Virus record (IMG/VR): IMGVR_UViG_3300045135_002970
Coordinates: 1-33,233 of that record
Reading direction: 5' to 3' (one strand)
Length of the DNA stretch: 33,233 nucleotides
Source: a virus
The translations under genes were made by a program, and so were the position numbers. Shown here one piece after another: positions 2,035 to 15,000 of this stretch; positions within the stretch are counted from its first letter, which is position 1; each line of letters opens with the position of its first letter. The notes beneath the pieces are model-generated. The model ran no database searches, was not told where the DNA came from, and worked only from the letters and a program-made list of their open reading frames with translations.

Positions 2035-2517
2035 ATGAAATTATTATTATTTTTATTAACGACATTATTTATTTTTCCCCTGTCAATAGAAGCACAAGAG
2101 GTATTTGTAGACAGGGTAGAGAATAGAGTTGTTATCGGAAAATTAGCTGGAAATAGAAATTTATCATTCGGTGTCAGAAATGTTCTTGAAGAATATCTTA
2201 TGGAAGCCGATTATGATTTATTTCCAAATGCTAAAAATAAAATAAATGTTGAGATCGTATTTTTAGATGTTTTGACGACAAGTCGAAACATATCAATTTT
2301 TTCAAAAAGAAGCGATGCTGTTGTAATAAGACTTCGTGGAGTTCTAAAAAGAGATGGTGAGGTTGTTAAAGAAGTGGTAGTAGAAGAATCGTCGGCAGAA
2401 GTATCGATGGCCACTTTGGTAATTGATAATGGGGGCAACTTTAACCAAACTAGTTTGAGTAATGCTTTGAAAAAGGCTTGTGAAAAATTAATTGAAGAAC
2501 TTCACGGAGAATTATGA
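2035..2517 (+). CDS. Small exported protein, possibly CsgG-like domain
   Basis: A 160-aa protein with a signal peptide ending IEAQ (about residue 21). An upstream in-frame ATG at 2017 would add six residues before the same signal and has no better ribosome site, so I chose 2035. The mature part alternates strands and helices. FGVRNVLEEYLMEADYDL, then a strand with VEIVFLDVLTTSRN, a second RLRGVLKRDGEVVKE pair and a final ALKKACEKLIEEL helix recall the domain order of the CsgG-like protein at 5217-5936. The similarity is by pattern, not by motif identity. It is the first gene behind the late promoter, and its stop overlaps the ATG of the next gene. Export confident; fold tentative. Confidence 0.6.
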   Translation: MKLLLFLLTTLFIFPLSIEAQEVFVDRVENRVVIGKLAGNRNLSFGVRNVLEEYLMEADYDLFPNAKNKINVEIVFLDVLTTSRNISIFSKRSDAVVIRLRGVLKRDGEVVKEVVVEESSAEVSMATLVIDNGGNFNQTSLSNALKKACEKLIEELHGEL

Positions 2518-4571
2518 AAAAATTACTTACTCTTTTGACAGGGTTACTATTATTACCTACTGTTGTTGAGGCTCAAAACAATCCAGAATTTTGGTGGGGA
2601 CTTCAAACATATACTCAAGATAAGAACGGTGGACCAATTGAAAAAGGTGACACCGTTTATCTAGAAGTTAAAATTAATCCTAACGGATCTAACATTCGAT
2701 CAACCTATTTTGATTTTCAGCATCAAAAAGATGCTGTTCATTTTCTAGGTGTTGAACGACGAGAAGCCATCCCATCTCAAAACAGTTTTCAGGTACACAA
2801 CTGGTTTTATCCAAATTGTAAATTTAATAGAACCTCTAATAATGTTACAAACGTGGGTTGGACGAATTGGCAGTACGCAAATTATACCTGTAATGCCTCA
2901 GAAGTTCCCTATACAGCAATCAACCGTGTCTATACCAGCGTTGCAGGTAATCAAGATATTACTGATATTGCAACTTACATACGATTGAAATTTGAAATTA
3001 CAAATACAGATGCTGGATTCCCTTACGATTCTGTATATATGAACTTTGCTATTGGGGTTAGTGGTGACCACTTTGGGGGTAATGGATACAGCTGGCTACA
3101 GGGTACAACCAATTCTGGACCCAAGGGAACGTGGATTCAATTAGCATCAACAGAAAACAACTTAATAACCGGACAATTAAAACATAGTGGAAATACTTCT
3201 AGTGATGCTAAAGATAAGATGAGTTTACGAGTGTACAATGCTAGTGATAATCTTGTTCTACAACACGCTATAGGAACTGGTAACGGAAGTTTTTCATTTG
3301 CTGAAGTACTTGACCAAAATTCAGATTATACTTTTAAGTTACACACCAGTGACGTTGACGCATTACTTGGCGAAGCAATCACAATTTCAGATTATACTGC
3401 TGCAGTAACAGAATTTATAAGTCAGAACTTAGATGGTACATATAACAACAATAATATTGACCATGGTATGAAATACTGGGCAGCTGACATAAACAATGAC
3501 AGTACATTTGATGCACCAGATCTACAAGCATTATTTAATCATGTTGTTGGAGTAGATACAATTGATGCAGCTCCTAATGGATACTTGCCGATATTCCCCA
3601 CATCAGAATATGATGGTACAACATTTACATCTTGGAAAAGTATAAAAGAATCGGGTAGAGTATTAGCAACAACCGATGGGGGTCAGGTAGAATGGGTGGT
3701 TCTATATGCATATGACAACACAAATAAAAGATATAGAATTGCATTGGATAGTAGAGAGTTTCCTACAGGGGCTCCGGCGTGGGACGCATTAACTCATTTA
3801 CAATTATTTGATTTATATCAAGGAGCGATTGTTCCCAAATCAACTGGAACAGGAACCGCTTATTGGAATGAATATTGGATTTATACTGATGATCAGATAG
3901 ATTTTAGTGATACTAATTACAATGCTTATATAAGAGATATGGGAAATAGTGAGTACGCATTTAAGGCCGAACTATCTTTTACACAAAGTAATTTACGAGA
4001 AATTCCATTTGTAACCACAACTGCTACACAACAAGTTGCTTGGAACTATGGAATTAAAGGTGATGTTAATTTGTCACACTCATCACCATTAACCACATCC
4101 GGTGTAACTCAACAAGCCCGGCTGGTTCAAACAGACCCAAGTATTGATCTAAATCTAAACAATGTGATTGTTACCTCTGACTCATTAACTATTCCATTTG
4201 AAATAGACAGTAGAAACATCCCCGTATCAGCTCTTCAATTCGAAGTTCAGTACGATCAGACTAAATTAAAATTTGAAGAACTAGACGCAAACACACCAAG
4301 TTGGATAACTTTTGTTAATGATAATGATGGTACATTACGATTTGGGGGATTATCAGAATGGCACACGAACTCAGCAGATCATCTAATCACAGGTCAAGCT
4401 ACACCATTTACACTTAAGTTTAGTTCAATAGGTTCTGGAACGGATCTAAATTCAAATATTTTGTTAACAAGAAATCTTGATGTCGCAGATGGGGGTGGAC
4501 ATCAAATTGGTATGAACATAAACACAAATCTTATTAAATTGATTGGTGTAAACAATTTTACCGGAAATTAA
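2514..4571 (+). CDS. Large secreted protein with dockerin-like and cohesin-like segments
   Basis: A 685-aa protein with a signal peptide ending VEAQ (about residue 20). The N-terminal third is Asn/Trp/Tyr-rich with four Cys-containing turns, typical of extracellular beta domains. About residues 320-345 hold DINNDSTFDAPDLQALFNHV, which matches one calcium-binding dockerin-type repeat (D-x-N-x-D-x-x-x-D plus helix). The last 130 residues (SLTIPFEIDSRNIPVSALQF, then EVQYDQTKLKFEEL and TPFTLKFSSIGSG) look like a cohesin-type beta sandwich. Dockerin and cohesin bind one another, so the protein could self-associate or form a surface polymer. It overlaps the previous stop by 4 bases and is followed at once by a lipoprotein gene. 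Proposed as cargo or partner of the CsgG-like pore; that link is inference. Confidence 0.7.
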   Translation: MKKLLTLLTGLLLLPTVVEAQNNPEFWWGLQTYTQDKNGGPIEKGDTVYLEVKINPNGSNIRSTYFDFQHQKDAVHFLGVERREAIPSQNSFQVHNWFYPNCKFNRTSNNVTNVGWTNWQYANYTCNASEVPYTAINRVYTSVAGNQDITDIATYIRLKFEITNTDAGFPYDSVYMNFAIGVSGDHFGGNGYSWLQGTTNSGPKGTWIQLASTENNLITGQLKHSGNTSSDAKDKMSLRVYNASDNLVLQHAIGTGNGSFSFAEVLDQNSDYTFKLHTSDVDALLGEAITISDYTAAVTEFISQNLDGTYNNNNIDHGMKYWAADINNDSTFDAPDLQALFNHVVGVDTIDAAPNGYLPIFPTSEYDGTTFTSWKSIKESGRVLATTDGGQVEWVVLYAYDNTNKRYRIALDSREFPTGAPAWDALTHLQLFDLYQGAIVPKSTGTGTAYWNEYWIYTDDQIDFSDTNYNAYIRDMGNSEYAFKAELSFTQSNLREIPFVTTTATQQVAWNYGIKGDVNLSHSSPLTTSGVTQQARLVQTDPSIDLNLNNVIVTSDSLTIPFEIDSRNIPVSALQFEVQYDQTKLKFEELDANTPSWITFVNDNDGTLRFGGLSEWHTNSADHLITGQATPFTLKFSSIGSGTDLNSNILLTRNLDVADGGGHQIGMNINTNLIKLIGVNNFTGN

Positions 4572-4926: not shown

Positions 4927-5205
4927 ATGTCAGAAGAAGGTGGTAATAGCCTAAAAAATTCAATTATAGGATTAATTACTGTTGTTGTAACAGCTTTAAC
5001 AGGTGTGGTTGCAAATAATTTTTTAGGTGGGGACGACACAGAAGAGGAACCCGCTGCAGCAGTTGCTCCTGTAATTAATTTAAATTTAGAAAATAATAAT
5101 GAAGTTAATAATGATGGTGGACCAGATGTTATTATCATTGAAAGTGACGATGATGATGAAGAAGAAGAACCAGATGCACATCTAAGAGCTAAACCAAAAT
5201 GGTAG
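4927..5205 (+). CDS. Single-TM protein with acidic tail
   Basis: A 92-aa protein with a good ribosome site (AAGGAG). Residues 10-31 form one transmembrane helix (SIIGLITVVVTALTGVVANN). It is followed by an Asp/Glu- and Asn-rich tail including ESDDDDEEEE and a short basic end. There is no cleavable signal. Genes of this shape (short start, one helix, charged tail) are common next to phage envelope genes. Here it sits between a lipoprotein and the CsgG-like gene, so a role in assembling that system is possible. A holin role is not supported by anything beyond size and the helix. Confidence 0.65.
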   Translation: MSEEGGNSLKNSIIGLITVVVTALTGVVANNFLGGDDTEEEPAAAVAPVINLNLENNNEVNNDGGPDVIIIESDDDDEEEEPDAHLRAKPKW

Positions 5206-5216
5206 GAGAATCCATA

Positions 5217-5936
5217 ATGAAAAAATTAATCTTAGCATTATTTTTGTTTCCATCAGTTTTAGTAGCACAAACAATTGGTTCTACTAGAACAGAACAATAT
5301 ACTGCATCATTTGAAACTGGTGGTAATTATGGTGAGTTAATCGGATACGATTATGATGGTCCAACAATTCCAATTCAATTATTAAAAGTTGGTATTGGTC
5401 CAGAACTATATGATTTTTATCCCGAATTAAGAGATAATCGTGTGGGTCTTGGGGTTACTAATATTGTTCTTGAGTTTTTAGATGAAACTTGGCGTTTTAC
5501 ATTTACTGAAGACAAAACAGAAATTAAAAATAGAATGGTGGCTCAATGGGAAGCTAGTGATGCTGGTGTTTCACAAAATCAAGTTAGTGGGTTTGGTCAA
5601 GTTGTATTAGCAAAATATTTTGCATATGTAGAAGTTTATGACTATTCAGTTTCGGAAGACGAAACATTAAACTTATCTGATGGTGTTAAAAATACTGTAG
5701 TGACTCGTCTTGGGTTACAGGTTCGTTTTGTAGATGCGGAAACGGGTCAAATTATTACAGGTTCCGGTCTTGGTACAGGAACAACTGTTCGTGAGTTATC
5801 ATTATTAAATGATGACAATTTAGAAGAAGTTAGATTTAATCAGAGTACAATTGGAATTGCTACTCGCAAGGCTCTTGAGGAAGCTGCTGCCAAAATTGTT
5901 AGAAGAATGATTAGACGAGGTATTTTTGAATCTTAA
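5217..5936 (+). CDS. CsgG-like curli secretion pore protein
   Basis: A 239-aa protein starting at the ATG after TAGGAG; an upstream frame start at 5199 lacks a ribosome site. The signal peptide ends LVAQ (residue 18); no lipobox is seen, unlike E. coli CsgG. CsgG features are the GLGVTNIVLEFLDET segment, the long strand-turn-strand around TRLGLQVRFVDAETGQII, a GSGLGTGTT turn, and a final ATRKALEEAAAKIVRRM helix. CsgG forms a nonameric pore in the outer membrane that exports curli subunits. I recall csgG/csgF-like genes being reported in marine T4-like phages of SAR11. Here the neighbours are all exported proteins, which fits a secretion role for the pore. Family call fairly sure; substrate unknown. 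Confidence 0.75.
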   Translation: MKKLILALFLFPSVLVAQTIGSTRTEQYTASFETGGNYGELIGYDYDGPTIPIQLLKVGIGPELYDFYPELRDNRVGLGVTNIVLEFLDETWRFTFTEDKTEIKNRMVAQWEASDAGVSQNQVSGFGQVVLAKYFAYVEVYDYSVSEDETLNLSDGVKNTVVTRLGLQVRFVDAETGQIITGSGLGTGTTVRELSLLNDDNLEEVRFNQSTIGIATRKALEEAAAKIVRRMIRRGIFES

Positions 5937-5948
5937 TATAGGAGTTTT

Positions 5949-6560
5949 ATGAAAAAGTTATTACTTTTATTTTTAATGGCAACACCTGTACAAGCACAGC
6001 TATTAGAAATTGATAGAGAAGAATATGATATCGTATTTTCCACCGAACTTATGTATCCGTTGTCTGTTAAATGGGAAACTAATCGTGAAGACGTAACGTG
6101 TGAAGATCCCTTGTCACGTAAAGATAGATTTGTTCCAGATCCCCTATATAGAGAGGAAACTAATCTAGCTAAAGATTATGTTGGTTCTGGTTTAGACCGT
6201 GGTCACATTTCCCCTGCCGCCGATAATCTTTGTGACGGTGAAGCTGTTATGTTAGAAAGTTTTTATTTTACAAATATGGCACCACAATATCCTGGCCTTA
6301 ATCGTGGCCAGTGGAAATCATTAGAAGACCACACAAGAAAATTAGCTGAGAATTGGGACACCATTCGAATTGAAGCTGGTTGTGTTGGTGAAGAAAGAAA
6401 AGTAAATAGATTGTCAGTACCAACACATTGTTGGAAAATTATTGAAATTGTCGAAACTGGAGAAATCACTGCATACGTCTTCCCAAATGTTCCCGAAAAA
6501 ACAAGATCGTTTGTTGATCATATTGTTTCATTGGATAGTATTGATGCCCTAAGAAGATAA
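5949..6560 (+). CDS. Secreted DNA/RNA non-specific endonuclease (NUC1 family)
   Basis: A 203-aa protein with a signal peptide ending VQAQ (about residue 17). It has the family's DRGH motif (LDRGHISPAADN, catalytic His) and the metal-binding Asn region FYFTNMAPQYPGLNRGQW. Four or more Cys suggest disulphides and an extracytoplasmic home. This beta-beta-alpha-Me nuclease hydrolyses DNA and RNA without sequence specificity using one magnesium ion. It is short but complete for the family (about 200-240 residues). It stands 12 bases after the CsgG-like stop, with a TAGGAG ribosome site. A secreted nuclease could salvage nucleotides, destroy DNA of incoming phages, or clear released host DNA. Function sure, purpose inferred. 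Confidence 0.9.
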   Translation: MKKLLLLFLMATPVQAQLLEIDREEYDIVFSTELMYPLSVKWETNREDVTCEDPLSRKDRFVPDPLYREETNLAKDYVGSGLDRGHISPAADNLCDGEAVMLESFYFTNMAPQYPGLNRGQWKSLEDHTRKLAENWDTIRIEAGCVGEERKVNRLSVPTHCWKIIEIVETGEITAYVFPNVPEKTRSFVDHIVSLDSIDALRR

Positions 6561-6561
6561 A

Positions 6562-8385
6562 ATGAAAAAGTTTGTATTTGCAACTTCACTTGCAATTTTA
6601 TCTTTACTATTTGTAGATGATCTGAGCGCACAAGTGGTTGTTTCTAATTGGATTGATCCATGTGACAATACAACAAAAACAGTAATTTTCCCGATGGCGA
6701 ATGTAGGAGTTTTAGTTTCTTATCGTGGAATGTCTCGAACGTTTACAGCAGCTGAGGCAAGAGCCGGAGCATTACAAACTTGGATTCAAGAAGTAACTGA
6801 ATATGTCCCGTGTCCCATAGAAAACAATGAAGTTGTAAACCAGACAGCAACCACGGCCGCGACTGACGCGGCGGCCGCCGCAGCGGCTGCTGCAGCGGAG
6901 GCTGCAGCTCAAGCCGCAGCAGAGGAAGCGGCACAAGCGGCTGCTGAAGAGGCGGCTGCCGCAGCAGCTGAGGAGGCTGCGGCTGCAGCAGCGGAGGAAG
7001 CCGCGGCGGCTGCAGCGGAAGAAGCAGCTGCTGCAGCTGCTGAGGAAGCTGCGGCCGCAGCTGCTGAAGAGGCGGCCGCCAGTTCTGCTGGTGGTACAAC
7101 TACTACTACTACCACATCTAGCACAACTACTTCTTCGTCTACCACATCGACTTCTAGTACAACCACTACTAGCACTGGTAGTGAGCAAAATAATACAACC
7201 ACCTCTACTTCCAGCACAACCTCGTCGGGTGACCAAAGTACAACAACATCAAGCGACCAAAGTACAACAAGTAGTGACTCAGGCACTACTTCAGATTCAA
7301 ATTCTACTACTTCTGATTCAGGCACCACTTCGGATTCGTCGGATTCGAGCACTACTTCTGATTCATCTGATTCAAGTACTAGTTCTGATTCTAGTGACTC
7401 CAGTAGTAGTTCCGATTCCAGTGATTCCAGTAGCTCAGACTCCAGTGATTCTAGTGACTCTAGTAGCAGTAGCGAAGAATCTAGTAGTAGTGAGGAGTCC
7501 AGTAGTAGCGAAGAATCTAGCAGTAGTGAAGAGTCAAGCACTGAGGAATCTTCCGAAGAATCAAGTACTGAAGAATCTACAGAAGAAAGTAGTGAAGAAT
7601 CAAGCGAAGAAAGTTCAGACAGTGAAGAAACTGAAGAGTCTGAAGAGAGTAGTGAAGACTCTGAGGAATCGGAGGAGGATTCAGAAGATTCAGAAGATTC
7701 AGAAGAAGACGAAGAGGAATCTGAGGAAGAGGAAAGTGCCGGTAATCCATTACTTGTTGCCGCTAACTTAACCTTTGGTCAAAGTCCCGATGGTGGGTTT
7801 TCTTCTGTAACGACAATTGGTGCGTCTAGAGCTTCTATGATGGGTGATGTGAGTTATGGTGCTACTGGAGTTATATGGAGCACCCTAGATCAGTTTGCTC
7901 TTTCTACAGCATATTCGAAAACAGGTTTTGTGGGTGGAGAGTTGTGGAATGTAAGAAACTTTTCTGCTACAACCGCTTATCTAAACGGAAACTGGTTGGG
8001 TATGCTTGGGTATACAGAGGTTTTACCAGATGTAAGTGGTGGTGTCTGGGGAATGAGCAATAGTGTGTTGTCACTGTTTATGAATGGTGAGGAAGGGTGG
8101 CAACGATCATATAGTATGTCTTCTATTTTATTTTATATGCCCCCACCATTTGCAGTGGGTGAAAGAATGATGTTAAGTCCACAATTATTTTTTATCGGTG
8201 CACCATACAGTTATACTAGTATAACAGGACTCGTAGTCAATACCAATATAAACTATATGGTAGGTACGGGATTCTCATATATGTTTACGAGAAGATTCGG
8301 TCTTCAAGGAGCATATAGAGCTATGATTGCTAGTGAGACTCCGATATTAAATTTCCTAATGATTGGGACTTCTGTTACCTTTTAG
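6562..8385 (+). CDS. Giant low-complexity outer-membrane protein (helical rod, Ser/Asp stalk, beta-barrel)
   Basis: A 607-aa protein. A signal peptide ends LSAQ (about residue 24). Residues 25-95 form a small domain with two Cys (IDPCDN, VPCPIE). Residues about 102-174 are an Ala/Glu helix built from the octad EEAAAAAA repeated five times. Residues about 178-391 go from Thr/Ser to Ser/Asp to Ser/Glu low complexity. The last 215 residues are strands with aromatic girdles and end in SVTF, a terminal Phe as in outer-membrane barrels. The order suggests an N-terminal tip on a helical rod and acidic stalk, anchored by a C-terminal barrel, as in autotransporter-like adhesins. It starts one base after the nuclease stop. 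Its last 30 bases overlap the convergent protease gene. No family recognised for the barrel. Confidence 0.8.
   Translation: MKKFVFATSLAILSLLFVDDLSAQVVVSNWIDPCDNTTKTVIFPMANVGVLVSYRGMSRTFTAAEARAGALQTWIQEVTEYVPCPIENNEVVNQTATTAATDAAAAAAAAAAEAAAQAAAEEAAQAAAEEAAAAAAEEAAAAAAEEAAAAAAEEAAAAAAEEAAAAAAEEAAASSAGGTTTTTTTSSTTTSSSTTSTSSTTTTSTGSEQNNTTTSTSSTTSSGDQSTTTSSDQSTTSSDSGTTSDSNSTTSDSGTTSDSSDSSTTSDSSDSSTSSDSSDSSSSSDSSDSSSSDSSDSSDSSSSSEESSSSEESSSSEESSSSEESSTEESSEESSTEESTEESSEESSEESSDSEETEESEESSEDSEESEEDSEDSEDSEEDEEESEEEESAGNPLLVAANLTFGQSPDGGFSSVTTIGASRASMMGDVSYGATGVIWSTLDQFALSTAYSKTGFVGGELWNVRNFSATTAYLNGNWLGMLGYTEVLPDVSGGVWGMSNSVLSLFMNGEEGWQRSYSMSSILFYMPPPFAVGERMMLSPQLFFIGAPYSYTSITGLVVNTNINYMVGTGFSYMFTRRFGLQGAYRAMIASETPILNFLMIGTSVTF
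6868..7083 (+). repeat. Ala/Glu octad repeat with shuffled codons
   Basis: Encodes five back-to-back EEAAAAAA units plus degenerate flanking units. The protein units are identical but the Ala and Glu codons differ in each copy, and the stretch is far richer in G+C than the rest of the window. Confidence 0.85.
7095..7736 (+). repeat. Ser/Thr to Ser/Asp to Ser/Glu low-complexity tract
   Basis: About 210 codons of Ser/Thr, then Ser-Asp-Ser, then Ser-Ser-Glu-Glu repeats. Net charge becomes steadily more negative toward the barrel. It resembles Ser-Asp stalks of surface adhesins and probably forms an extended disordered spacer. Confidence 0.85.
7399..7471 (+). repeat. Donor copy of the Ser-Asp repeat shared with 8708-8792
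   Basis: This stretch recurs as a direct repeat 1309 bases downstream with one substitution (7438 g to 8747 a) and a 12-base tandem insertion in the second copy. Here it is read in sense as Ser-Asp repeats. Confidence 0.85.
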
Positions 8386-8883
8386 AGATATCAAATTTTG
8401 ATTTGCAAGAAGATTACAACTAGCAAATTGTACACCATGGTTCACCACACCTAACGCATGAAGAATTTCATGTGCAGCTACCCAAGAAACATTTCTATAT
8501 TGATACGCGATTCGAATTGTTTTTGTTTGTGGAATGTATTCAGCAATTGTAATGTCATTGTTAGTTCTTTCTATTTCTTTGTCAGGAAAAAGTTCCCAAA
8601 TTATGTCTTCATAGTTAACAGGAACATTTATAGCAGAACAATCAAGCACATACCTAAAAGCATCTCTACGCATTTTTTCAATCTCAACCATTTCTTGTTG
8701 AGACATTTCCAGTAGTAGTTCCGATTCCAGTGATTCCAGTAGCTCAAACTCCAGTGATTCTAGTGACTCTTCTAGTGACTCTAGTAGCAGTAATTCTAGT
8801 GACTCCTGAAATGGCATTTCCGATTCTTGTAAAATTGGATATGTAAAAAAATAAATAAATACTAATATAATTGTATAATTCAT
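8356..8883 (-). CDS. Metzincin-like zinc protease with repeat-derived N-terminal insert
   Basis: A 175-aa protein with a GGAGAA ribosome site before the ATG at 8883. Residues 1-18 are a hydrophobic export signal. Residues about 31-59 are an amphipathic Leu/Glu/Ser segment encoded by the antisense strand of a copied Ser-Asp repeat. Then comes a compact protease domain with HEILHALGVVNH at residues 138-149, the full metzincin HExxHxxGxxH-type zinc site (H138, E139, H142, H149; spacing H-E-x-x-H-x-x-G-x-x-x-H). The domain is small, as in minimal matrixin-like proteases; a Met-turn is not obvious. It converges on, and overlaps by 30 bases, the giant outer-membrane protein gene. It may process surface proteins of the same module. 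Zinc site sure; family inferred. Confidence 0.75.
   Translation of the reverse strand: MNYTIILVFIYFFTYPILQESEMPFQESLELLLLESLEESLESLEFELLESLESELLLEMSQQEMVEIEKMRRDAFRYVLDCSAINVPVNYEDIIWELFPDKEIERTNNDITIAEYIPQTKTIRIAYQYRNVSWVAAHEILHALGVVNHGVQFASCNLLANQNLISLKGNRSPNH
8708..8792 (+). repeat. Second copy of the Ser-Asp repeat, read antisense in the protease gene
   Basis: Direct repeat of 7399-7471 with an extra 12-base unit (8771-8782). It lies inside the minus-strand protease gene, so there it codes for a Leu/Glu/Ser stretch (ESLESLEFELLESLESE) instead of Ser-Asp. Confidence 0.85.
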
Positions 8884-8908: not shown

Positions 8909-8989
8909 TGCCCAAGGAGGGATTCGAACCCCCACGCCATAAGACATCAGATCCTAAATCTGACGCGTCTACCGTTCCGCCACTTGGGC
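8909..8989 (-). tRNA. tRNA-Leu (anticodon TAG)
   Basis: Minus strand: 7-bp acceptor GCCCAAG/CTTGGGC, anticodon loop TTTAGGA, long variable arm, T-loop TTCGAAT, discriminator A. No CCA encoded. Confidence 0.92.
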
Positions 8990-8996
8990 CTAACAA

Positions 8997-9078
8997 CGGA
9001 AAGGGTGGGATTCGAACCCACGAGCACTTACGTGCGACAGATTAGCAGTCTGCTCCGTTACCACTCCGGCACCTTTCC
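8997..9078 (-). tRNA. tRNA-Ser (anticodon GCT)
   Basis: Acceptor GGAAAGG/CCTTTCC, anticodon loop CTGCTAA, class II variable arm, T-loop TTCGAAT, discriminator G as usual for serine tRNAs. Confidence 0.92.
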
Positions 9079-9081
9079 TAA

Positions 9082-9591
9082 TTAATATTTCACTATAGTT
9101 TCGTGGTTCCAATCAAACCACTTTAAAATATGATTTTGTGATTGGTACACATTGGTCAAAATGTGATTTTTAATTTCCAGAATATCGGGAGCTACTGGAT
9201 TGTCTGTATCTCTATCAAATACCCATAGTTTTTCAGGACACAATCTAGCTAAAACATTATGTAAATTAACATGACGATAATGACCATATTCACCAGACTG
9301 ATTGTGAGTTACGATCTTTGTCCATGTTCGTTCTTCTAATACCCTAGTAATCAAAGGAATTAAAATAGATTCATTATATGCAGCCGAAGACTTGAATGGT
9401 TCACCGTCCCAATGTTCCCATTTTTGAATACCGATGGTTTCCATCGCTTTTATAAATTCTCTATGTCTAATTAAATGATTGCCATAATCTAATGCTACAA
9501 CTTTATATTCTTTATAATTCTGTATTAGTTCTGCTCCACCAAACAACACCTCGTCGTCTGGGTGTGCGACAATCATAAGTTTATTAATCAC
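9082..9591 (-). CDS. PIG-L/LmbE-family zinc deacetylase
   Basis: A 169-aa protein with the family's AHPDDE motif at residues 9-14 (zinc-binding His10 and Asp13, catalytic Asp12) and a second zinc region HNQSGEYGHYRHVNLH (about residues 104-119). PIG-L/LmbE enzymes remove the N-acetyl group from N-acetylglucosamine-containing compounds or related amides. It is shorter than many family members (220 or more) but both metal motifs are present. Its start overlaps the end of nagB by eight bases, so the two are one transcript. Together they could turn an N-acetylated amino sugar into fructose-6-phosphate and ammonia; which substrate it deacetylates is unknown. Confidence 0.85.
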   Translation of the reverse strand: MINKLMIVAHPDDEVLFGGAELIQNYKEYKVVALDYGNHLIRHREFIKAMETIGIQKWEHWDGEPFKSSAAYNESILIPLITRVLEERTWTKIVTHNQSGEYGHYRHVNLHNVLARLCPEKLWVFDRDTDNPVAPDILEIKNHILTNVYQSQNHILKWFDWNHETIVKY

Positions 9592-10267
9592 AATAAAATA
9601 CTCTTACATTTTCATGTTCTTTTAATATAGAAGCTGGTACATCGGGGGTCGTTTTTCCCCATATAGCTTTTACGAGAGCATCACGTTTGTGTTCACCGTG
9701 TACCATCATAATTATTTCTTTTGAACTCATAATAGTTTTTAATCCCATTGTAATTGCTTGAGTGGGAACATCATCAATAGAATCAAAAAATCTACTATTA
9801 TCTTTTATGGTTTGTTGGGTTAAGTTTACAATTCTTGTTGTTGAATTAAATGGTGTGGATGGTTCATTAAAAGCAATATGACCATTAGAACCTAGTCCTA
9901 GTATTGTTAAATCCAACCCACCAGCTTTTTGAATTTCATCGTCATAATTTAAATTTGGAAATCTAATATTTTCTTCTTTGATATCAGTGTACATATGTAA
10001 ACGACGCCACATAAAATTTGTATAACTTTCTGGATGATCTGGGTCTATGTCAATATATTCATCTAAATTAAATGTTGTGACCGCTGACCAAGTTAGATTT
10101 CTCTCAACCAAAGATTTATACATTCCAATGGGAGTTCCACCCGTGGGTAGTCCAAGTTTTATGTGTGGTAAGTTATGGGTGCCCGGTATAGGAGCAATTA
10201 GGTCTTCAATAATATCAGCCACCATGACCGACATTGTGGAATAATCTGTAATATAATTTATAATCAT
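9584..10267 (-). CDS. nagB: Glucosamine-6-phosphate deaminase
   Basis: About 227 aa. NagB turns glucosamine-6-phosphate into fructose-6-phosphate and ammonia. Visible motifs are GLPTGGTP (phosphate loop), FNLDEY (catalytic Asp), GLGSNGHIAFNEP (catalytic His and lid) and ITMGLKTIMSS. It is shorter than E. coli NagB (266), lacking the C-terminal part linked to allosteric GlcNAc-6-P control, as in some Gram-positive enzymes. I chose the ATG at 10267 because it forms an ATGA overlap with the DUF2452 gene; an in-frame ATG at 10279 would add four residues. It is followed by the overlapping PIG-L deacetylase gene. NagB is a rare phage metabolic gene. Confidence 0.92.
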   Translation of the reverse strand: MIINYITDYSTMSVMVADIIEDLIAPIPGTHNLPHIKLGLPTGGTPIGMYKSLVERNLTWSAVTTFNLDEYIDIDPDHPESYTNFMWRRLHMYTDIKEENIRFPNLNYDDEIQKAGGLDLTILGLGSNGHIAFNEPSTPFNSTTRIVNLTQQTIKDNSRFFDSIDDVPTQAITMGLKTIMSSKEIIMMVHGEHKRDALVKAIWGKTTPDVPASILKEHENVRVFYCD

Positions 10268-10647
10268 TTCTTTAACCATGAATGTTCTGGTGTTAATTTA
10301 AATGAACCCACATATCCTTTCCATCCTGTGTCTTCGTAGGATAGTAAGGAAAGAAAATGAGTTCCGTTTTCTCGTTGATAGAGGTGATATGTTTTCCCTA
10401 TCCTTGGTTTAAAATTAATTTCCGCCTCGTATACTGCTTTATTCCAATGATATTCCTTGACCAATGCTTCCCAATCGTCTTTGAGTCGGTCATACTTTTC
10501 TTTGAAGTAATGACCAAAGGTAGGTTCTACGGTTTTTATCCATCCCTTAATGTCCTCAGGCGTAATGCTAGCTGGACTATTAGGGGTTCTACCATATGAG
10601 AGAGCGTTATCCCTCTTACCATCTTCTATAGGTTTTGGTAATGTCAT
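10264..10647 (-). CDS. DUF2452 family protein
   Basis: A 127-aa protein with a strong GGAGG ribosome site. The pattern NALSYGRTPNSPAS, then KEYHWNKAVYEAEINFKP, IGKTYHLYQRENGTHFLSLL and a final VGSFKL-type strand fits DUF2452, a domain of unknown function found in marine bacteria, eukaryotes and T4-like marine phages. Its stop overlaps the nagB start. It heads the three-gene minus-strand set with nagB and the deacetylase, just downstream of two tRNAs. No catalytic residue can be assigned. Confidence 0.7.
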   Translation of the reverse strand: MTLPKPIEDGKRDNALSYGRTPNSPASITPEDIKGWIKTVEPTFGHYFKEKYDRLKDDWEALVKEYHWNKAVYEAEINFKPRIGKTYHLYQRENGTHFLSLLSYEDTGWKGYVGSFKLTPEHSWLKK

Positions 10648-10666
10648 TACTCCTCCATGTAACTTA

Positions 10667-10739
10667 TACCCCCGGCAGGATTCGAACCTGCGACTCCCGG
10701 CTTAGAAGGCCGGTGCTCTATCCACTGAGCTACGGAGGC
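10667..10739 (-). tRNA. tRNA-Arg (anticodon TCT)
   Basis: Cloverleaf with anticodon loop CTTCTAA, T-loop TTCGAAT, acceptor GCCTCCG paired to CGGGGGT (two G-U pairs), discriminator A. Confidence 0.92.
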
Positions 10740-10746
10740 AAATTGA

Positions 10747-10819
10747 TGGAGCCAATCGGGATCGAACCGATGACCTCCTGCGTGCAAAGCAGGCGCTCTC
10801 CCATCTGAGCTATGGCCCC
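10747..10819 (-). tRNA. tRNA-Ala (anticodon TGC)
   Basis: Acceptor GGGGCCA/TGGCTCC with a G-U pair at position 3, the alanine identity mark; anticodon loop TTTGCAC; T-loop TTCGATC; discriminator A. Confidence 0.93.
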
Positions 10820-10828
10820 GATACAATT

Positions 10829-10857
10829 AATTTAACTATATAGTGGTGAGATGTCAA
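10829..10857 (-). promoter_or_regulatory. Possible sigma70-like promoter before the Ala/Arg tRNAs
   Basis: Minus strand TTGACA (10852-10857), 17-base spacer, TAAATT (10829-10834). It overlaps the end of phoH and faces the two tRNAs, DUF2452 and nagB. The -10 box is weak. Confidence 0.35.
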
Positions 10858-11549
10858 TGGTGTCCATTACCATTTAAATTTTCATATGCATCTAATAAAG
10901 CGTCAACAACTGAATGTCGGTGGTTTACAACTAACGTATGGGAATCAACATCTTTAATCTGTTTTGATTTGGATAATATAAATTTAAATCCAGAGTCTTG
11001 TTTTTGTTTTAAATCTACTTGTTGATTGTCACCACAAATCACCATTTTACTTCTAATACCAAGTCGTGAAATAATCATTTCGGTTTGTTCGTGAGTACAA
11101 TTTTGTGCTTCGTCTACAATAACAAAGCTATCTAAAAAGGTACGACCTCTCATAAATGCAACTGGAACGATTTCTATAGATCCGTCGCTTAATATAGTAT
11201 CAATTTTGTCTCTTCTGTATAGTTGATAAAAATTTGAATAGATGGGTTGCATCCACGGTTCCATTTTTTCTCTAAGATCGCCGGGGAGAAAACCAATTTC
11301 TTCTTTCGATACAGTCGGTCGGGTAATTACAATTTGTTTAACTTGTTTTCTAAATAACATATCAAGAGCAACTTGACACGCTAAGAGAGTTTTACCAGAC
11401 CCAGCTTTCCCATTAAGAACAGTTATGGCATTATCAAGTATTTTTTGTTTTGCTATTTTTTGTTCTTCATTTAGTTGAATTCGAAACCGTATGGGACCTT
11501 TTGGTTTTCTTTTGGGGGTAGAACCGTTACCATTATTTTTTCTTGACAT
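10854..11549 (-). CDS. phoH: PhoH-like ATPase
   Basis: A 231-aa protein. I placed the start at 11549, where AAGGAGAG precedes the ATG; the frame extends to an ATG at 11576 that would swallow this ribosome site. Walker A is GKAGSGKT (residues 47-54), followed by ITRPTVSKEEIGFLPG typical of PhoH, and Walker B is FVIVDEAQN (about 142-150). PhoH is a P-loop ATPase, distantly related to helicases, widely carried by marine phages and often called part of the phosphate-stress set; its true role is unsettled, with RNA-related activity suggested. A TATAAATA late promoter sits about 50 bases upstream. The N-terminus is a Lys/Arg/Asn-rich tail. Confidence 0.92.
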   Translation of the reverse strand: MSRKNNGNGSTPKRKPKGPIRFRIQLNEEQKIAKQKILDNAITVLNGKAGSGKTLLACQVALDMLFRKQVKQIVITRPTVSKEEIGFLPGDLREKMEPWMQPIYSNFYQLYRRDKIDTILSDGSIEIVPVAFMRGRTFLDSFVIVDEAQNCTHEQTEMIISRLGIRSKMVICGDNQQVDLKQKQDSGFKFILSKSKQIKDVDSHTLVVNHRHSVVDALLDAYENLNGNGHH

Positions 11550-11575
11550 AACACCACTCTCCTTGATGTAACTCA

Positions 11576-11583
11576 TATAAATA
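11576..11583 (+). promoter_or_regulatory. T4-type late promoter for 11684-11923
   Basis: Exact TATAAATA on the plus strand, about 100 bases upstream of the small membrane gene, back to back with the late promoter for phoH. Confidence 0.55.
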
Positions 11584-11597
11584 GTTTCTAATTAATG

Positions 11598-11605
11598 TAT
11601 TTATA
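11598..11605 (-). promoter_or_regulatory. T4-type late promoter for phoH
   Basis: Exact TATAAATA on the minus strand (TATTTATA on the plus strand), about 50 bases before the phoH start codon. Confidence 0.6.
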
Positions 11606-11683
11606 CTACTTATATTTGAGGTATACCCGTGTTTTGTGTTTTAAGAAGAAGTTATTTTCTATGAACAAAACAGAGGAGTATTT

Positions 11684-11923
11684 ATGGATCTTTTGAAGAA
11701 GGTTGGCTCTTGGGTCAACCAACTTACGGAGGTCGGTGTGGGTGTTGTCGCTCTGGGTGTAGTGCTTGAAGTGCTATTTACTGGAGAGGGGATTCCCTTT
11801 TGGCCTGACATTTCTGTGGTAGATAATATCATGGGAATCGTTGGATCATTAAGTAACGAGGGTCTACTAGGATTAGTAGGTGCATTCGTTCTATACCACA
11901 TCCTTAAAGACAGACAAGGATAA
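11684..11923 (+). CDS. Small membrane protein, function unknown
   Basis: A 79-aa protein behind AGAGGAG. Residues about 17-34 (VGVGVVALGVVLEVLF) and about 58-73 (NEGLLGLVGAFVLYHIL) are hydrophobic, so two membrane passes are likely; the N-terminus is amphipathic and the C-terminus basic (KDRQG). It is a lone plus-strand gene inside a minus-strand block, with its own late promoter upstream and a strong terminator downstream, so it is an independent single-gene late unit. That isolation and the two-helix shape would suit a holin or a virion membrane-active peptide, but no motif supports either. Confidence 0.7.
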   Translation: MDLLKKVGSWVNQLTEVGVGVVALGVVLEVLFTGEGIPFWPDISVVDNIMGIVGSLSNEGLLGLVGAFVLYHILKDRQG

Positions 11924-11960
11924 CACCAGTTCTACTCATAGTTTTAATATAACGCGTTCG

Positions 11961-11988
11961 AAAAGGCCCTACTTCGGTAGGGTCTTTT
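11961..11988 (+). terminator. Rho-independent terminator with UUCG loop
   Basis: Stem AAAAGGCCCTAC/GTAGGGTCTTTT around a TTCG tetraloop, followed by T-rich sequence. The A-run on its left could let it act on both strands. It closes the single-gene unit at 11684-11923. Confidence 0.85.
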
Positions 11989-11996
11989 CACTTTTA

Positions 11997-12068
11997 CGGT
12001 CCCACGGGGAATCGAACCCCGCTCTTTGCCGTGACAGGGCAATATTCTAGCCGATAAACTATAGGACC
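11997..12068 (-). tRNA. tRNA-Asp (anticodon GTC)
   Basis: Acceptor GGTCCTA/TGGGACC, anticodon loop CTGTCAC, T-loop TTCGATT, discriminator G as expected for aspartate. Confidence 0.92.
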
Positions 12069-12071
12069 AAC

Positions 12072-12431
12072 TTATTTTACCATTCCATGTTTAGTTGGTT
12101 TTCCATCTTCATCTAAACAAACAAAAACAATTTCATCAATGTGTGCTATCACTTGTCTGGTTTTTTCATTTCGTACTACAGCATCAACTGTGATCGAAGT
12201 TTTTCCTAGTTGTTTTAACTGTACTCCAATTTCAATTAAATCACCTTGGTGTGCTGGTGCAATAAAATCTATTTCTGACATTTTTTTGGTGACCAGACGA
12301 TAATGTTTGATTTCAGACATTATATACATCGCGGCGGCTTCATCAACCCATGATAAAGCAGTACCACCAAATAATGTGTTAGCGGCGTTTAAGTCGCCCG
12401 GCATGACAATTTTTCTAGTTAAGAATCTCAT
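12072..12431 (-). CDS. YciA-type acyl-CoA thioesterase (hotdog fold)
   Basis: A 119-aa protein typical in length for a single hotdog domain. MPGDLNAANTLFGGTALSWVDEAAAM (key Asn, Gly and Asp residues in the order of the acyl-CoA hydrolase family) and DFIAPAHQGDLIEIGVQL are the two diagnostic regions. Such enzymes hydrolyse acyl-CoA to fatty acid and CoA and act as hexamers or similar in the cytosol. Its start overlaps the upstream gene's stop (ATGA). A phage copy could tune host membrane lipid or CoA pools; this is an inference. Family call sure. Confidence 0.88.
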   Translation of the reverse strand: MRFLTRKIVMPGDLNAANTLFGGTALSWVDEAAAMYIMSEIKHYRLVTKKMSEIDFIAPAHQGDLIEIGVQLKQLGKTSITVDAVVRNEKTRQVIAHIDEIVFVCLDEDGKPTKHGMVK

Positions 12432-12781
12432 TTGGAATCGTCTCTTACCACCCTAACGATAAATGTATCACGGCTCATGCCTGTTGTTTCTAGAGTCACG
12501 TTTTCAATACCTCTGGAATAGAGAAGCCACTCCATCTCTCTGTTGGTTGGAAGACCCAATTCTATTTGTAGGGCCTCCTCCTTAATGATCTCACCACGCC
12601 AATCTATCCAACCGTCGTCACAGCAAGCAAAGTGGGTAACAGGAATATATGCTGAAATCCATTTTGTTGTGCCTAGCTCAGTGTCATCCATGTTTTTGTA
12701 CGGGAACCAATGATCAACCCACTCTCGTTTCATGTGGTCGGGTCTGTCACAACTAGGACAGATATCTTGGAGTTCGTCCAT
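12428..12781 (-). CDS. Hypothetical protein with Cys-rich N-terminus
   Basis: A 117-aa protein. CPSCDRPDHM near the N-terminus and ACCDDGW further on give a CxxC plus CC pattern that could bind zinc. The rest is rich in Trp, Asp and Glu. The C-terminal half (TNREMEWLLYSRGI, then RDTFIVRVVRDD) looks like a compact alpha/beta domain. Its stop overlaps the thioesterase start, so the pair is co-translated. A poor ribosome site precedes the ATG. No family recognised. Confidence 0.65.
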   Translation of the reverse strand: MDELQDICPSCDRPDHMKREWVDHWFPYKNMDDTELGTTKWISAYIPVTHFACCDDGWIDWRGEIIKEEALQIELGLPTNREMEWLLYSRGIENVTLETTGMSRDTFIVRVVRDDSK

Positions 12782-12810
12782 TTAAAAATTTGATTCCTTT
12801 TGATTATGAA

Positions 12811-12895
12811 TGCTTCGGGCGAGATTCGAACTCGCAAGCCCTTACCGGGCGTCAGATTTTAAGTCTGATGTGTATACCTATTCCACCACCGAAGC
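12811..12895 (-). tRNA. tRNA-Leu (anticodon TAA)
   Basis: Acceptor GCTTCGG/CCGAAGC, anticodon loop CTTAAAA, long variable arm, T-loop TTCGAAT, discriminator A. Second leucine isoacceptor of the array. Confidence 0.92.
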
Positions 12896-12902
12896 GAGAA
12901 AA

Positions 12903-13181
12903 TTAATTTAAGTCTAGTTGAACTTTTAATAATGCTAAATCACGTTCAAGTTGGTTAACGAGATCTTCTAGTTCTTCAACACGTTCAGTTAATAATCCGC
13001 TAGTGCCTATGTACTTCTTTTGACGATCAAGTACATCTTCTATTTGTGTTGCATTTTGCATATCTGCATTTTCAAAATCACGAAATCTTGTACCTGCAAA
13101 CCAAGAAGCTGCAATTATACTAATTGCAAAACCAATACTAACCGCAGGTAATGATGATGCTTTACTTATCGGGTTAGCCAT
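12903..13181 (-). CDS. Membrane-anchored coiled-coil protein
   Basis: A 92-aa protein with TTGGAG before the ATG. Residues about 12-30 (LPAVSIGFAISIIAASWFAG) are one transmembrane helix. The last 30 residues (LLTERVEELEDLVNQLERD and on) are a heptad coiled coil. The same helix-plus-coiled-coil layout recurs at 19814-20170. Inner-membrane spanin components have this shape, but no lipoprotein partner is adjacent. It sits among tRNA genes in a minus-strand run. Confidence 0.65.
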   Translation of the reverse strand: MANPISKASSLPAVSIGFAISIIAASWFAGTRFRDFENADMQNATQIEDVLDRQKKYIGTSGLLTERVEELEDLVNQLERDLALLKVQLDLN

Positions 13182-13221
13182 ATTTTACTCCAAATAAAAA
13201 TTAATAGGTAGTCATAAGTAG

Positions 13222-13295
13222 TCGGGATAGCTGGATTCGAACCAGCGGCCCCTCGCTCCCAAAGCGAGTGCGCTACCGGACTGCGCCATATCCCG
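13222..13295 (-). tRNA. tRNA-Pro (anticodon TGG)
   Basis: Acceptor CGGGATA/TATCCCG, anticodon loop TTTGGGA, T-loop TTCGAAT, discriminator A. Confidence 0.92.
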
Positions 13296-13298
13296 AAG

Positions 13299-13372
13299 AG
13301 CTACCTTTCGGATTCGAACCGAAGACCTGCTGCTTACAAGGCAGCTGCTCTGGCCAACTGAGCTAAGGTAGC
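13299..13372 (-). tRNA. tRNA-Thr (anticodon TGT)
   Basis: Acceptor GCTACCT/AGGTAGC, anticodon loop CTTGTAA, T-loop TTCGAAT, complete cloverleaf three bases from the proline tRNA. Confidence 0.92.
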
Positions 13373-13631
13373 ACATCGACCGTTGAAGCCGTCGCTTCTT
13401 CTGCTATCGGGGACGGTCACTCCCTCACCTACCACAATTAAAACCGTAGACCAAGTGTAGGGTCAGTACTACGGTCCTACGGAAACAAGGCCCGTAAGAA
13501 CCCCCACATAAGGACTGGCGGCCACACCAGCAAGTTCCGATCAAGGAACACCTTATGTTTCATCAAATCATACATTCTAGATTGCGACTCTAGATGTTCA
13601 GTGGGAACACCACCTAGTATGTTTGATTGGT
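13373..13631 (-). ncRNA. Structured RNA A (gene-free gap in the tRNA array)
   Basis: This part of the gap has no reading frame but, read on the minus strand, many perfect helices. They are an 11-bp stem with one bulge (13617-13627 with 13562-13573) enclosing GTGG/CCAC and TCTAGA/TCTAGA hairpins; an 8-bp stem ACATAAGG/CCTTATGT (13551-13558 with 13506-13513) enclosing GTTCC/GGAAC and CTGG/CCAG hairpins; CCGTAG-type 7-bp (13469-13475 with 13443-13449) interlaced with GTAGG/CCTAC (13476-13480 with 13457-13461), a possible pseudoknot; and GACCGT/ACGGTC around GAAGC-GACG-GCTTC (13378-13418). Two three-way junctions are clear. It starts right after a hammerhead candidate. No known RNA class recognised. 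Confidence 0.65.
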
Positions 13632-13678
13632 ATCTGTGACTTTTCAGTTTCTAGCATTTCAGCCGTCATCAGACAGAT
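13632..13678 (-). ncRNA. Candidate type I hammerhead ribozyme
   Basis: On the minus strand: stem I ATCTGT/ACAGAT (6 bp, 13673-13678 with 13632-13637), core CTGATGA (13666-13672), a weak stem II (about three pairs with a C-A mismatch at its base), GAAA (13648-13651), stem III ACT/AGT with a GAAA loop, and the cleavage triplet GTC (13638-13640). Self-cleavage would fall between 13638 and 13637, separating the upstream glutamine tRNA from RNA A and the threonine tRNA. The core and stems I and III fit; stem II is the weak point. Confidence 0.55.
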
Positions 13679-13682
13679 TTAG

Positions 13683-13755
13683 TTGCCCCACTAGGACTCG
13701 AACCTAGACTTTCATGATCCAAAGTCACGCGTGTTGCCAGTTACACCATGGGGCA
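13683..13755 (-). tRNA. tRNA-Gln (anticodon TTG)
   Basis: Acceptor TGCCCCA/TGGGGCA, anticodon loop CTTTGGA on stem CGTGA/TCATG, T-loop TTCGAGT, discriminator A. Confidence 0.9.
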
Positions 13756-13784
13756 GTCGCTTTTTTTTACTACGTTCACACCAG

Positions 13785-13858
13785 TACGCCCACAGGGACT
13801 TGAACCCCGAACCTATCGCATATAAGGCGAGTGCTCTCACCAATTGAGCTATGAGCGC
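13785..13858 (-). tRNA. tRNA-Ile (anticodon TAT)
   Basis: Anticodon loop CTTATAT, acceptor GCGCTCA/TGGGCGT with G-U pairs, T-loop TTCAAGT. One anticodon-stem mismatch at the outer pair. Reads the rare ATA codon, common in this AT-rich genome. Confidence 0.88.
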
Positions 13859-13861
13859 ATA

Positions 13862-13935
13862 TGGACCCTGTAGGACTTGAACCTACGACCTACCGATTAT
13901 GAGTCGGCTGCTCTAACCGACTGAGCTAAGGGTCC
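13862..13935 (-). tRNA. tRNA with anticodon CAT (Met or lysidine-type Ile)
   Basis: Acceptor GGACCCT/AGGGTCC, anticodon loop CTCATAA, T-loop TTCAAGT, discriminator A. It lacks initiator features (a 1-72 pair is present and no GGG/CCC run is seen in the anticodon stem). Met and Ile2 cannot be told apart here. Confidence 0.88.
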
Positions 13936-13938
13936 GCA

Positions 13939-14010
<72 letters not shown>

Positions 14011-14013
14011 AAA

Positions 14014-14086
14014 TAGCCCGTAGGAGAATTGAACTCCTCTCTTCGCCGTGAAAGGGCGATGTCCTAATCCGATAGACGAACGGGCC
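14014..14086 (-). tRNA. tRNA-Glu (anticodon TTC)
   Basis: Acceptor GGCCCGT/ACGGGCT, anticodon loop CTTTCAC, T-loop TTCAATT, discriminator A. Confidence 0.9.
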
Positions 14087-14089
14087 ACA

Positions 14090-14329
14090 GTAATAGAATG
14101 TGAGTGAAGGATTTCCTTGTACCTCCAATAGAGCTACCCCGAAGGGTTACCGTAGGCTTTGGCCAGCTCTAAACCGTGAATGTGTCCGCCGACTGTTAAG
14201 TCAGGATTGCGAATCCAAATAATGATTGCCGGTCATTATTGTGTTCTTAACGTTCACGTACCTTGTCCCCCGATAGAAGGGACTATTCAGTCAACTCACG
14301 GATGCCCGTCGGCACCGCTTTTCTATTAC
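14090..14329 (-). ncRNA. Structured RNA B closed by a 9-bp perfect stem
   Basis: A gene-free 240-base gap between the glutamate and lysine tRNAs. GTAATAGAA (minus strand, 14321-14329) pairs perfectly with TTCTATTAC (14090-14098) and closes the whole unit. Inside, on the minus strand, are GTCCC/GGGAC (14279-14283 with 14265-14269), AATAATGA/TCATTATT (14233-14240 with 14218-14225), GGATT/AATCC (14212-14216 with 14204-14208), a CTGACT/AGTCGG hairpin, and AGAGCT/AGCTCT (14165-14170 with 14130-14135) enclosing ACCC-TTCG-GGGT. This is a many-branched RNA of a class I do not recognise. Confidence 0.65.
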
Positions 14330-14348
14330 CTAAATTTTCAAATAACTA

Positions 14349-14421
14349 TGGTCCCTCTGGGACTCGAACCCAGAACCTATTGGTTAAAAGCCAAGTGCTC
14401 TACCAATTGAGCTAAAGGACC
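14349..14421 (-). tRNA. tRNA-Lys (anticodon TTT)
   Basis: Acceptor GGTCCTT/AGGGACC, anticodon loop CTTTTAA, T-loop TTCGAGT, discriminator A. Confidence 0.92.
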
Positions 14422-14423
14422 AT

Positions 14424-14524: not shown

Positions 14525-14854
14525 TGGAGACGGCGGGATTTGCACCCGCGTCCGAACTTAACTACCCAAATCACTATCAACGCTGTAGGACAGTTAGGAG
14601 TACCAAGGTGTCCAACCTCACGGCTTTGTAACGTCTATGCCGATCACGAAATACATTCTTTGGTGTATATATCCGTACTTAGCTCTATTCCTAAGAGTCA
14701 CCCGAAGTCATTTACTTCCCGTGTTTATCCTATCGGTATCAGATAGTGGGAAGGGCTTAAGCGGCCATTAGTAAAGGTTCGTCAGTTACTTTTAAAGTAT
14801 CAAACTAGCGTATCAATTTAGTATCACTAAACCCGTCGAATCTAAATCGTCCCC
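14525..14854 (-). ncRNA. ssrA: One-piece tmRNA
   Basis: On the minus strand the 5' end reads GGGGACGATTTAGATTCGAC, the canonical tmRNA start, and the 3' end carries a T-arm (GCGGGTGCAAATCCCGC) and CGTCTCCA. The acceptor GGGGACG pairs with CGTCTCC over seven pairs (one G-U). The message part is probably GTA ACT GAC GAA CCT TTA CTA ATG GCC GCT TAA (14789-14757), giving a tag ending TDEPLLMAA, with the expected Ala-Ala end for ClpXP. tmRNA with SmpB frees stalled ribosomes and tags the protein for proteolysis. It lies within the tRNA array. The resume codon is my inference; CCA is not encoded. Confidence 0.92.
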
Positions 14855-14865
14855 GTATATGAGGA

Positions 14866-15000
14866 GTGGTGAAAGATTCTCCGTCCCGTCCGTTTCCAGC
14901 CATGGCGGACTTTTCCCACGCGGATTCGAACCGCACAGTCCATTGGAACATATCGCTGGGGAGAACTTTCGGCCAGTGACGCGGCACTGACTTTTACCAC
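14866..15000 (-). ncRNA. Structured RNA D with T-arm-like hairpin
   Basis: A 135-base unit just upstream (in the transcript) of the tmRNA. GTGGTAAAAG pairs with CTTTCACCAC (14991-15000 with 14866-14875) apart from one mismatch and closes it. Inside are CAGTG/CACTG, TTCTCC/GGAGAA, GTCCG/CGGAC and a GCGG-TTCGAAT-CCGC hairpin identical to a tRNA T-arm (around 14919-14933). No D-arm or anticodon arm can be drawn, so it is not an ordinary tRNA. Confidence 0.55.

Follow-up and report, generated by a model that had tools for sequence, protein, structure and literature searches.

In-frame antisense reading of a Ser-Asp repeat duplicated from a viral gene for a predicted barrel protein into a convergent gene

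Can a coding repeat be copied into a neighbouring gene of opposite orientation and be translated there from its other strand? This question is raised by the viral record IMGVR_UViG_3300045135_002970, which was analysed over its whole length of 33,233 bases (hereafter referred to as the window) and has no close named relatives. A Ser-Asp repeat in the linker of a plus-strand gene for a predicted outer-membrane barrel protein (the donor or stalk gene) recurs in the window inside a minus-strand gene for a putative metallopeptidase (the recipient). We examined how the two copies are related, how each is read, and how the second copy may have arisen. The coordinates of the features discussed below are collected in Table 1.

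Table 1. Features of the donor gene, the recipient gene and the duplicated segment in the window
Feature	Position	Strand	Basis or remark
Donor gene, 607 aa	6562..8385	+	Translation; related loci; predicted barrel
Ser-Asp donor segment (SSSSSDSSDSSSSDSSDSSDSSSS)	7399..7471	+	Self-comparison
Recipient gene, 175 aa, putative membrane-anchored zincin-like metallopeptidase	8356..8883	-	Translation; Shine-Dalgarno; codon score; motif
Presumed catalytic domain, residues 60-175	8359..8706	-	Translation; no homologue found
Hairpin CTCAAC-8 nt-GTTGAG	8683..8702	+	Read from sequence, immediately left of the junction
CATTTCC, left member of a 7-nt direct repeat	8704..8710	+	Overlaps the first three bases of the copy (TCC)
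Second copy of the donor segment	8708..8792	+	One substitution, 12-nt tandem duplication
Local TTCTAGTGACTC tandem duplication within the copy	8758..8782	+	Tandem Repeats Finder
Probable further array piece	8793..8807	+	14/15 identical to 7387-7401
CATTTCC, right member of the direct repeat	8815..8821	+	Sequence

A direct duplication and the frame in which it is read

Self-comparison of the window revealed that positions 8708-8770 repeat positions 7399-7461 in the same orientation (62/63 nt, 98.4%, E = 7e-29), and that positions 8770-8792 are an exact repeat of 7449-7471 (23/23 nt, 100%), with 1309 bases separating the start of the donor segment from the start of the copy. The window therefore holds a high-identity copy of local sequence at a second site, as in dispersed templated duplication. 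Relative to 7399-7471, the sole substitution is GAC to AAC (G to A on the plus strand, hence C to T on the minus strand); the 12 bases inserted in the copy are a second TTCTAGTGACTC unit (period 12, 2.1 copies, 100% identity). These results agree fully with a sequence-only reading that preceded this analysis, which had given the same coordinates, direct orientation, distance, substitution and insertion. The best local score between donor and copy was 127, whereas 300 codon shuffles that preserved the local composition of the array reached at most 73, which rules out chance or shared codon bias as the source of the similarity. An inverted orientation of the copy was also rejected, as the corresponding local score was only 20. 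Judging from the adjoining array-like piece at 8793-8807 (AATTCTAGTGACTCC), the copied block probably spans about 100 nt (8708-8807), slightly more than 8708-8792, and ends at the TGA of the Ser-Asp frame.

The copy lies in frame within the minus-strand open reading frame 8356-8883, where residues 27-59 read ESLELLLLESLEESLESLEFELLESLESELLLE, and it adds about 33 Leu/Glu/Ser residues to the encoded protein. Translation thus bore out the earlier claim of an in-frame duplication inside an opposite-strand gene, read as Leu/Glu/Ser. The accompanying explanation, that a repeat unit divisible by three keeps both strands open, proved to be wrong: of the six donor frames, three contain stops, and only one of the three antisense frames is stop-free. 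A unit length divisible by three means that a single frame is kept throughout, and nothing more, while the openness of the antisense frame is due to the codons used. A direct copy into a minus-strand gene would stay open in about a third of registers (7/23 for 72-nt pieces around the donor). On the plus strand, the Ser-Asp frame of the copy is open, has no start and is closed on both sides by TGA (8699-8701 and 8808-8810); it therefore constitutes no gene, and only the minus-strand reading counts.

The donor and recipient genes

The donor protein consists, in order, of a signal peptide, an N-terminal domain, an Ala-rich stretch, a linker and a predicted C-terminal outer-membrane beta-barrel, and it has no match in Pfam or PHROGs. 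Its linker passes from Thr/Ser through Ser-Asp to Ser-Glu, and the donor segment sits within a longer array with 24- and 27-nt periods. A search with the barrel domain identified 37 related viral loci, and the proteins they encode have a common layout: the N-terminal domain is followed by an Ala- or Ala/Ser-rich stretch, by linkers that are first Ser-rich and then charged, and by the C-terminal domain. The linkers of these relatives are Ser-rich, Ser-Glu or Glu/Lys, and a Ser-Asp run like that of the window donor is absent from them in all 37 loci, which suggests that the array, and hence the copy, is recent in this lineage. An AlphaFold2 model of the barrel domain, built from 23 aligned sequences (pLDDT 80.2), contains 12-13 long antiparallel strands, and Foldseek matched it to OmpG, NalP, Hbp and other outer-membrane barrels (best E = 7e-6). 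With up-and-down antiparallel strands in the model and a terminal aromatic residue (the sequence ends in Phe), the C-terminus is predicted to be an outer-membrane beta-barrel. The gene at 6562-8385 (+) and its counterparts in loci L037-L073 form a widespread viral family that combines a Ser-rich or charged linker with a predicted 12-strand outer-membrane barrel.

The recipient gene converges with the donor gene, and the two overlap by 30 nt at the donor 3' end. A strong Shine-Dalgarno sequence (AAAGGAGAACAAATG; AAAGGAG) precedes Met1 of the recipient at good spacing; Met60 has none, and an internal start at Met60, with the copy as a leader, was rejected for this reason. The codon scores flanking the copy are 0.37 and 0.30 bits per codon, as in other genes, versus about 0 in the copy itself. 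Given the Shine-Dalgarno sequence at Met1 and the normal codon scores on either side, the recipient looks like a real gene that carries a foreign block. This block is placed between an N-terminal hydrophobic segment and the HExxH domain.

The recipient had initially been called a protease. An HExxH motif is indeed present (HEILHALGVVNH) and lies on a predicted helix (residues 134-145) of a low-confidence AlphaFold2 model. The third histidine comes one place late for a metzincin, so the matrixin-like HExxHxxGxxH motif was rejected, and the match to Pfam Matrixin (Peptidase_M10; E = 0.065, 13.5 bits) fell below the cut-off of 24 bits. The protease call thus stands by the motif HEILHALG and not by a family match. 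Structure comparison of the same low-confidence model returned common alpha/beta sandwiches and ferredoxin-like folds at Z of about 8, which we did not trust.

Comparison with homologous proteases lacking the insert had been proposed as a check on the duplication, and our searches yielded no homologues for it. None were found by protein-pattern scans of viral and genome contig collections, by tblastn of phage records or among PDB sequences, and neither Pfam nor PHROGs gave a match above cut-off. The recipient gene was also missing from the 38 viral records behind the donor-related loci, and in none of the 37 related loci did this protease gene stand beside the donor relative. Degenerate DNA patterns of the active site gave two matches, both in unrelated proteins, one of which has a matrixin-like site (MAHEIFHALGMGHC). 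We also searched for further copies of the repeat. An exact 30-base probe had no match in the viral contig collection, and blastn of the locus against phages produced low-scoring matches only, all within the repeat array and in Staphylococcus phages. Elsewhere in the loci of the donor relatives there were no long linker copies, only a few short matches of 15-23 bases. Across 819 kb (the related loci plus the window), other dispersed repeats of at least 45 bases and at least 85% identity occurred in three loci only, two of which are near-duplicates; this kind of event is therefore rare in this sample. The repeats inspected in those three loci were mostly AT-rich or promoter- or terminator-like, and one short pair overlaps open reading frames.

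Origin and consequences of the copy

The two CATTTCC members bracket the block and stand exactly 111 nt (37 codons) apart. The left junction and the donor share TCC, and positions 8818-8826 (TTCCGATTC) are a 9-mer shared with the donor array at 7410-7418. A direct repeat in the same geometry occurs at about 2% of random places in the window. For the repeat together with the other microhomology, all of it short and recognised in hindsight, the chance expectation is about 1-2% of places, so that these features are suggestive at most. The hairpin at the left junction is a possible pause site by its sequence, and CCATTTC within it (8688-8694) is the inverse of the filler GAAATGG to the right of the copy. 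The sequence flanking the copy shares only short matches with the array (local scores 18-19). Since the donor lies within a longer array and the flanks of the copy are unlike that array, copying went from the stalk-gene array into the minus-strand gene. Joining the two CATTTCC members on paper gives an uninterrupted protein of 138 residues, an empty-site expectation drawn from one sequence only, and a relative without the block would be expected to read ...ILQESEMSQQEM... across the site. It is likewise from this one sequence that we infer that an insertion took place, where exactly its borders lie and how old it is.

Taken together, these observations are probably explained by a single recent template switch, in which about 75-100 bases of the array were copied into a linker that tolerates added sequence. 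During replication or repair, the growing strand would have left the small minus-strand gene, copied this length of the nearby Ser-Asp array, doubled 12 bases through a slip on the way, and returned to its own template. The block would thereby have entered the linker that joins the membrane-anchoring N-terminus to the HExxH domain, and it may have survived because it fell in the sole stop-free antisense frame of the array and preserved the reading frame of the gene. The outcome would be a linker lengthened by a probably helical, acidic Leu/Glu/Ser stretch. Most likely, the insert does nothing beyond this lengthening, which would make the event a nearly neutral one. On the minus strand, the two additional changes of the copy are each C to T; they yield Phe and Leu, which would be compatible as well with weak selection favouring a hydrophobic face.

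The insert may instead have been kept as useful, extending the linker into a stiff helical spacer that keeps the catalytic domain off the membrane or lets it meet a partner. The position of the insert exactly between anchor and domain, the two point changes that turn Ser into Phe and Leu, and a single continuous helix over residues 25-74 in the AlphaFold2 model of the recipient would all suit such a role, and helix formation by the Leu/Glu/Ser insert is plausible. However, this model was built from a single sequence with low confidence (mean pLDDT 55.8), and no relatives were found that could show conservation. The coiled coil suggested by the sequence-only reading also failed to emerge, as hydrophobic residues occupy 0.60 of the a/d positions of the insert and 0.80 of shuffles do as well, and nothing pointed to the contact with the neighbouring rod that had been raised along with it; we thus regard a selected spacer as unlikely. 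Regulation in trans is a second functional possibility, in which pairing between the protease and stalk mRNAs lowers the expression of one or both. In the computed RNA duplex all 73 donor bases pair (-137 kcal/mol), with one 12-base bulge and with the single substitution turned into a G-U pair. Yet any direct duplication into an opposite-strand gene produces such complementarity, the two genes are already convergent with overlapping ends, and terminators and promoters lend no support, consensus sites being few and not clearly above shuffles. Antisense regulation is accordingly very improbable, and less probable still is a double use of the copied repeat, as an antisense-derived helical spacer and as a 73-base mRNA complementarity that makes the barrel protein and the protease mutually exclusive or balanced.

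An assembly artefact, in which an assembler walking through the repeat made the copy, would be conceivable for an IMG/VR record without a cultured source, in which the identical stretches are long enough to mislead short k-mers. Against this, the copy has its own substitutions and 12-nt duplication, and codon use is normal on both flanks, which rejoin a single open reading frame without a change of frame. The donor gene, like its relatives, is also complete over its whole length, and a false join would need two coordinated errors; we therefore give an artefact very little weight. The insertion is in frame, lies in an unrelated gene and is flanked by a short direct repeat, which also recalls small mobile or self-spreading coding elements such as the Rickettsia palindromic elements, which form palindromic families of about 150 bp with many copies (Ogata et al. 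2000, 2002; PMC10969869). As in those elements, a short DNA block sits in frame in an unrelated protein gene and is tolerated as extra residues. Unlike them, the block is present in only two copies in the window, is not palindromic, and has its source in part of another protein-coding gene, one copy being plainly part of the longer coding array. No terminal inverted repeats were seen and no inverted repeat spans the copy, which led us to reject a Rickettsia palindromic element or MITE; the viral collection held no exact 30-base match, and the stalk relatives carry no copies outside the gene save the matches of 15-23 bases. A mobile element is thus the least probable of these explanations. We further rejected the repeat pair of a diversity-generating retroelement, since the changes do not fall at template adenines and comprise a plus-strand G to A together with the 12-nt duplication.

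The template-switch reading also has parallels among known systems. Like microhomology-mediated template switching and dispersed short duplication, the locus would combine a short templated insertion, possible junction microhomology and a local slip; it differs in that the recipient gene is translated from the antisense strand of a coding repeat. PARCEL repeats are translated in sense and spread horizontally (PMC2996958). They resemble the present case in that DNA coding for repeats gives rise to amphipathic segments, often with an opposite-strand open frame, whereas the copy described here is read in antisense and was found once. In a limited literature search, we found no described precedent for the antisense in-frame reading of a duplicated repeat. 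The locus is a clean recent example of new protein sequence arising. It suggests that a repetitive coding stretch with an open antisense frame can enter a gene on the opposite strand by copying and leave that gene intact, and that direct duplication into an opposite-strand neighbour automatically yields complementary messages. Being one case that lacks relatives, the locus serves to illustrate both points, not to test them.

The surrounding cassette and other genes of the window

In the fuller of the related loci, the barrel gene comes after homologues of 2017-2517, 2514-4571 and 5199-5936 in the window. The product of 2017-2517 matched Pfam CsgG (PF03783) at E = 0.009 and 15.8 bits, below the cut-off of 20.8. 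A curli-like gene cassette has been reported in pelagimyophages (PMC7029224), and despite the sub-threshold CsgG match the window cassette looks like it: the donor is the last gene, it is accompanied by the weak CsgG-like match, a cohesin-like protein and small membrane proteins, and the arrangement is conserved in related viral contigs. The two differ in that the curli assignment is weak here and in that the barrel protein is undescribed in the accessible part of that report. The gene at 2514-4571 (+) encodes a 685-aa secreted protein whose cohesin domain (E = 5.5e-6) shares the chain with a dockerin-like stretch (ADINNDSTFDAPDLQALFNHV). Between 5199-5936 and the barrel gene lies a DNA/RNA non-specific endonuclease gene (5949-6560, +; PF01223, E = 1.2e-34), and in several relatives (e.g., L048 and L068) the 5199-5936 homologue adjoins the barrel gene without it.

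We also observed several genes on the far side of the recipient. PIG-L deacetylase-like and glucosamine-6-phosphate isomerase-like genes (9082-10279, -) co-occur in most of 34 related loci, which suggests a phage-carried amino-sugar pathway. A cluster of 14 tRNAs (8909-14422) adjoins a phage-encoded tmRNA (14525-14897, -) with the tag DEPLLMAA. The gene at 15072-16202 (-) encodes an adenylosuccinate synthetase-like protein that matches phrog_1211 (E = 3.5e-98; '2-aminooxy adenylosuccinate synthetase') and may be a PurZ-type enzyme for 2-aminoadenine DNA.
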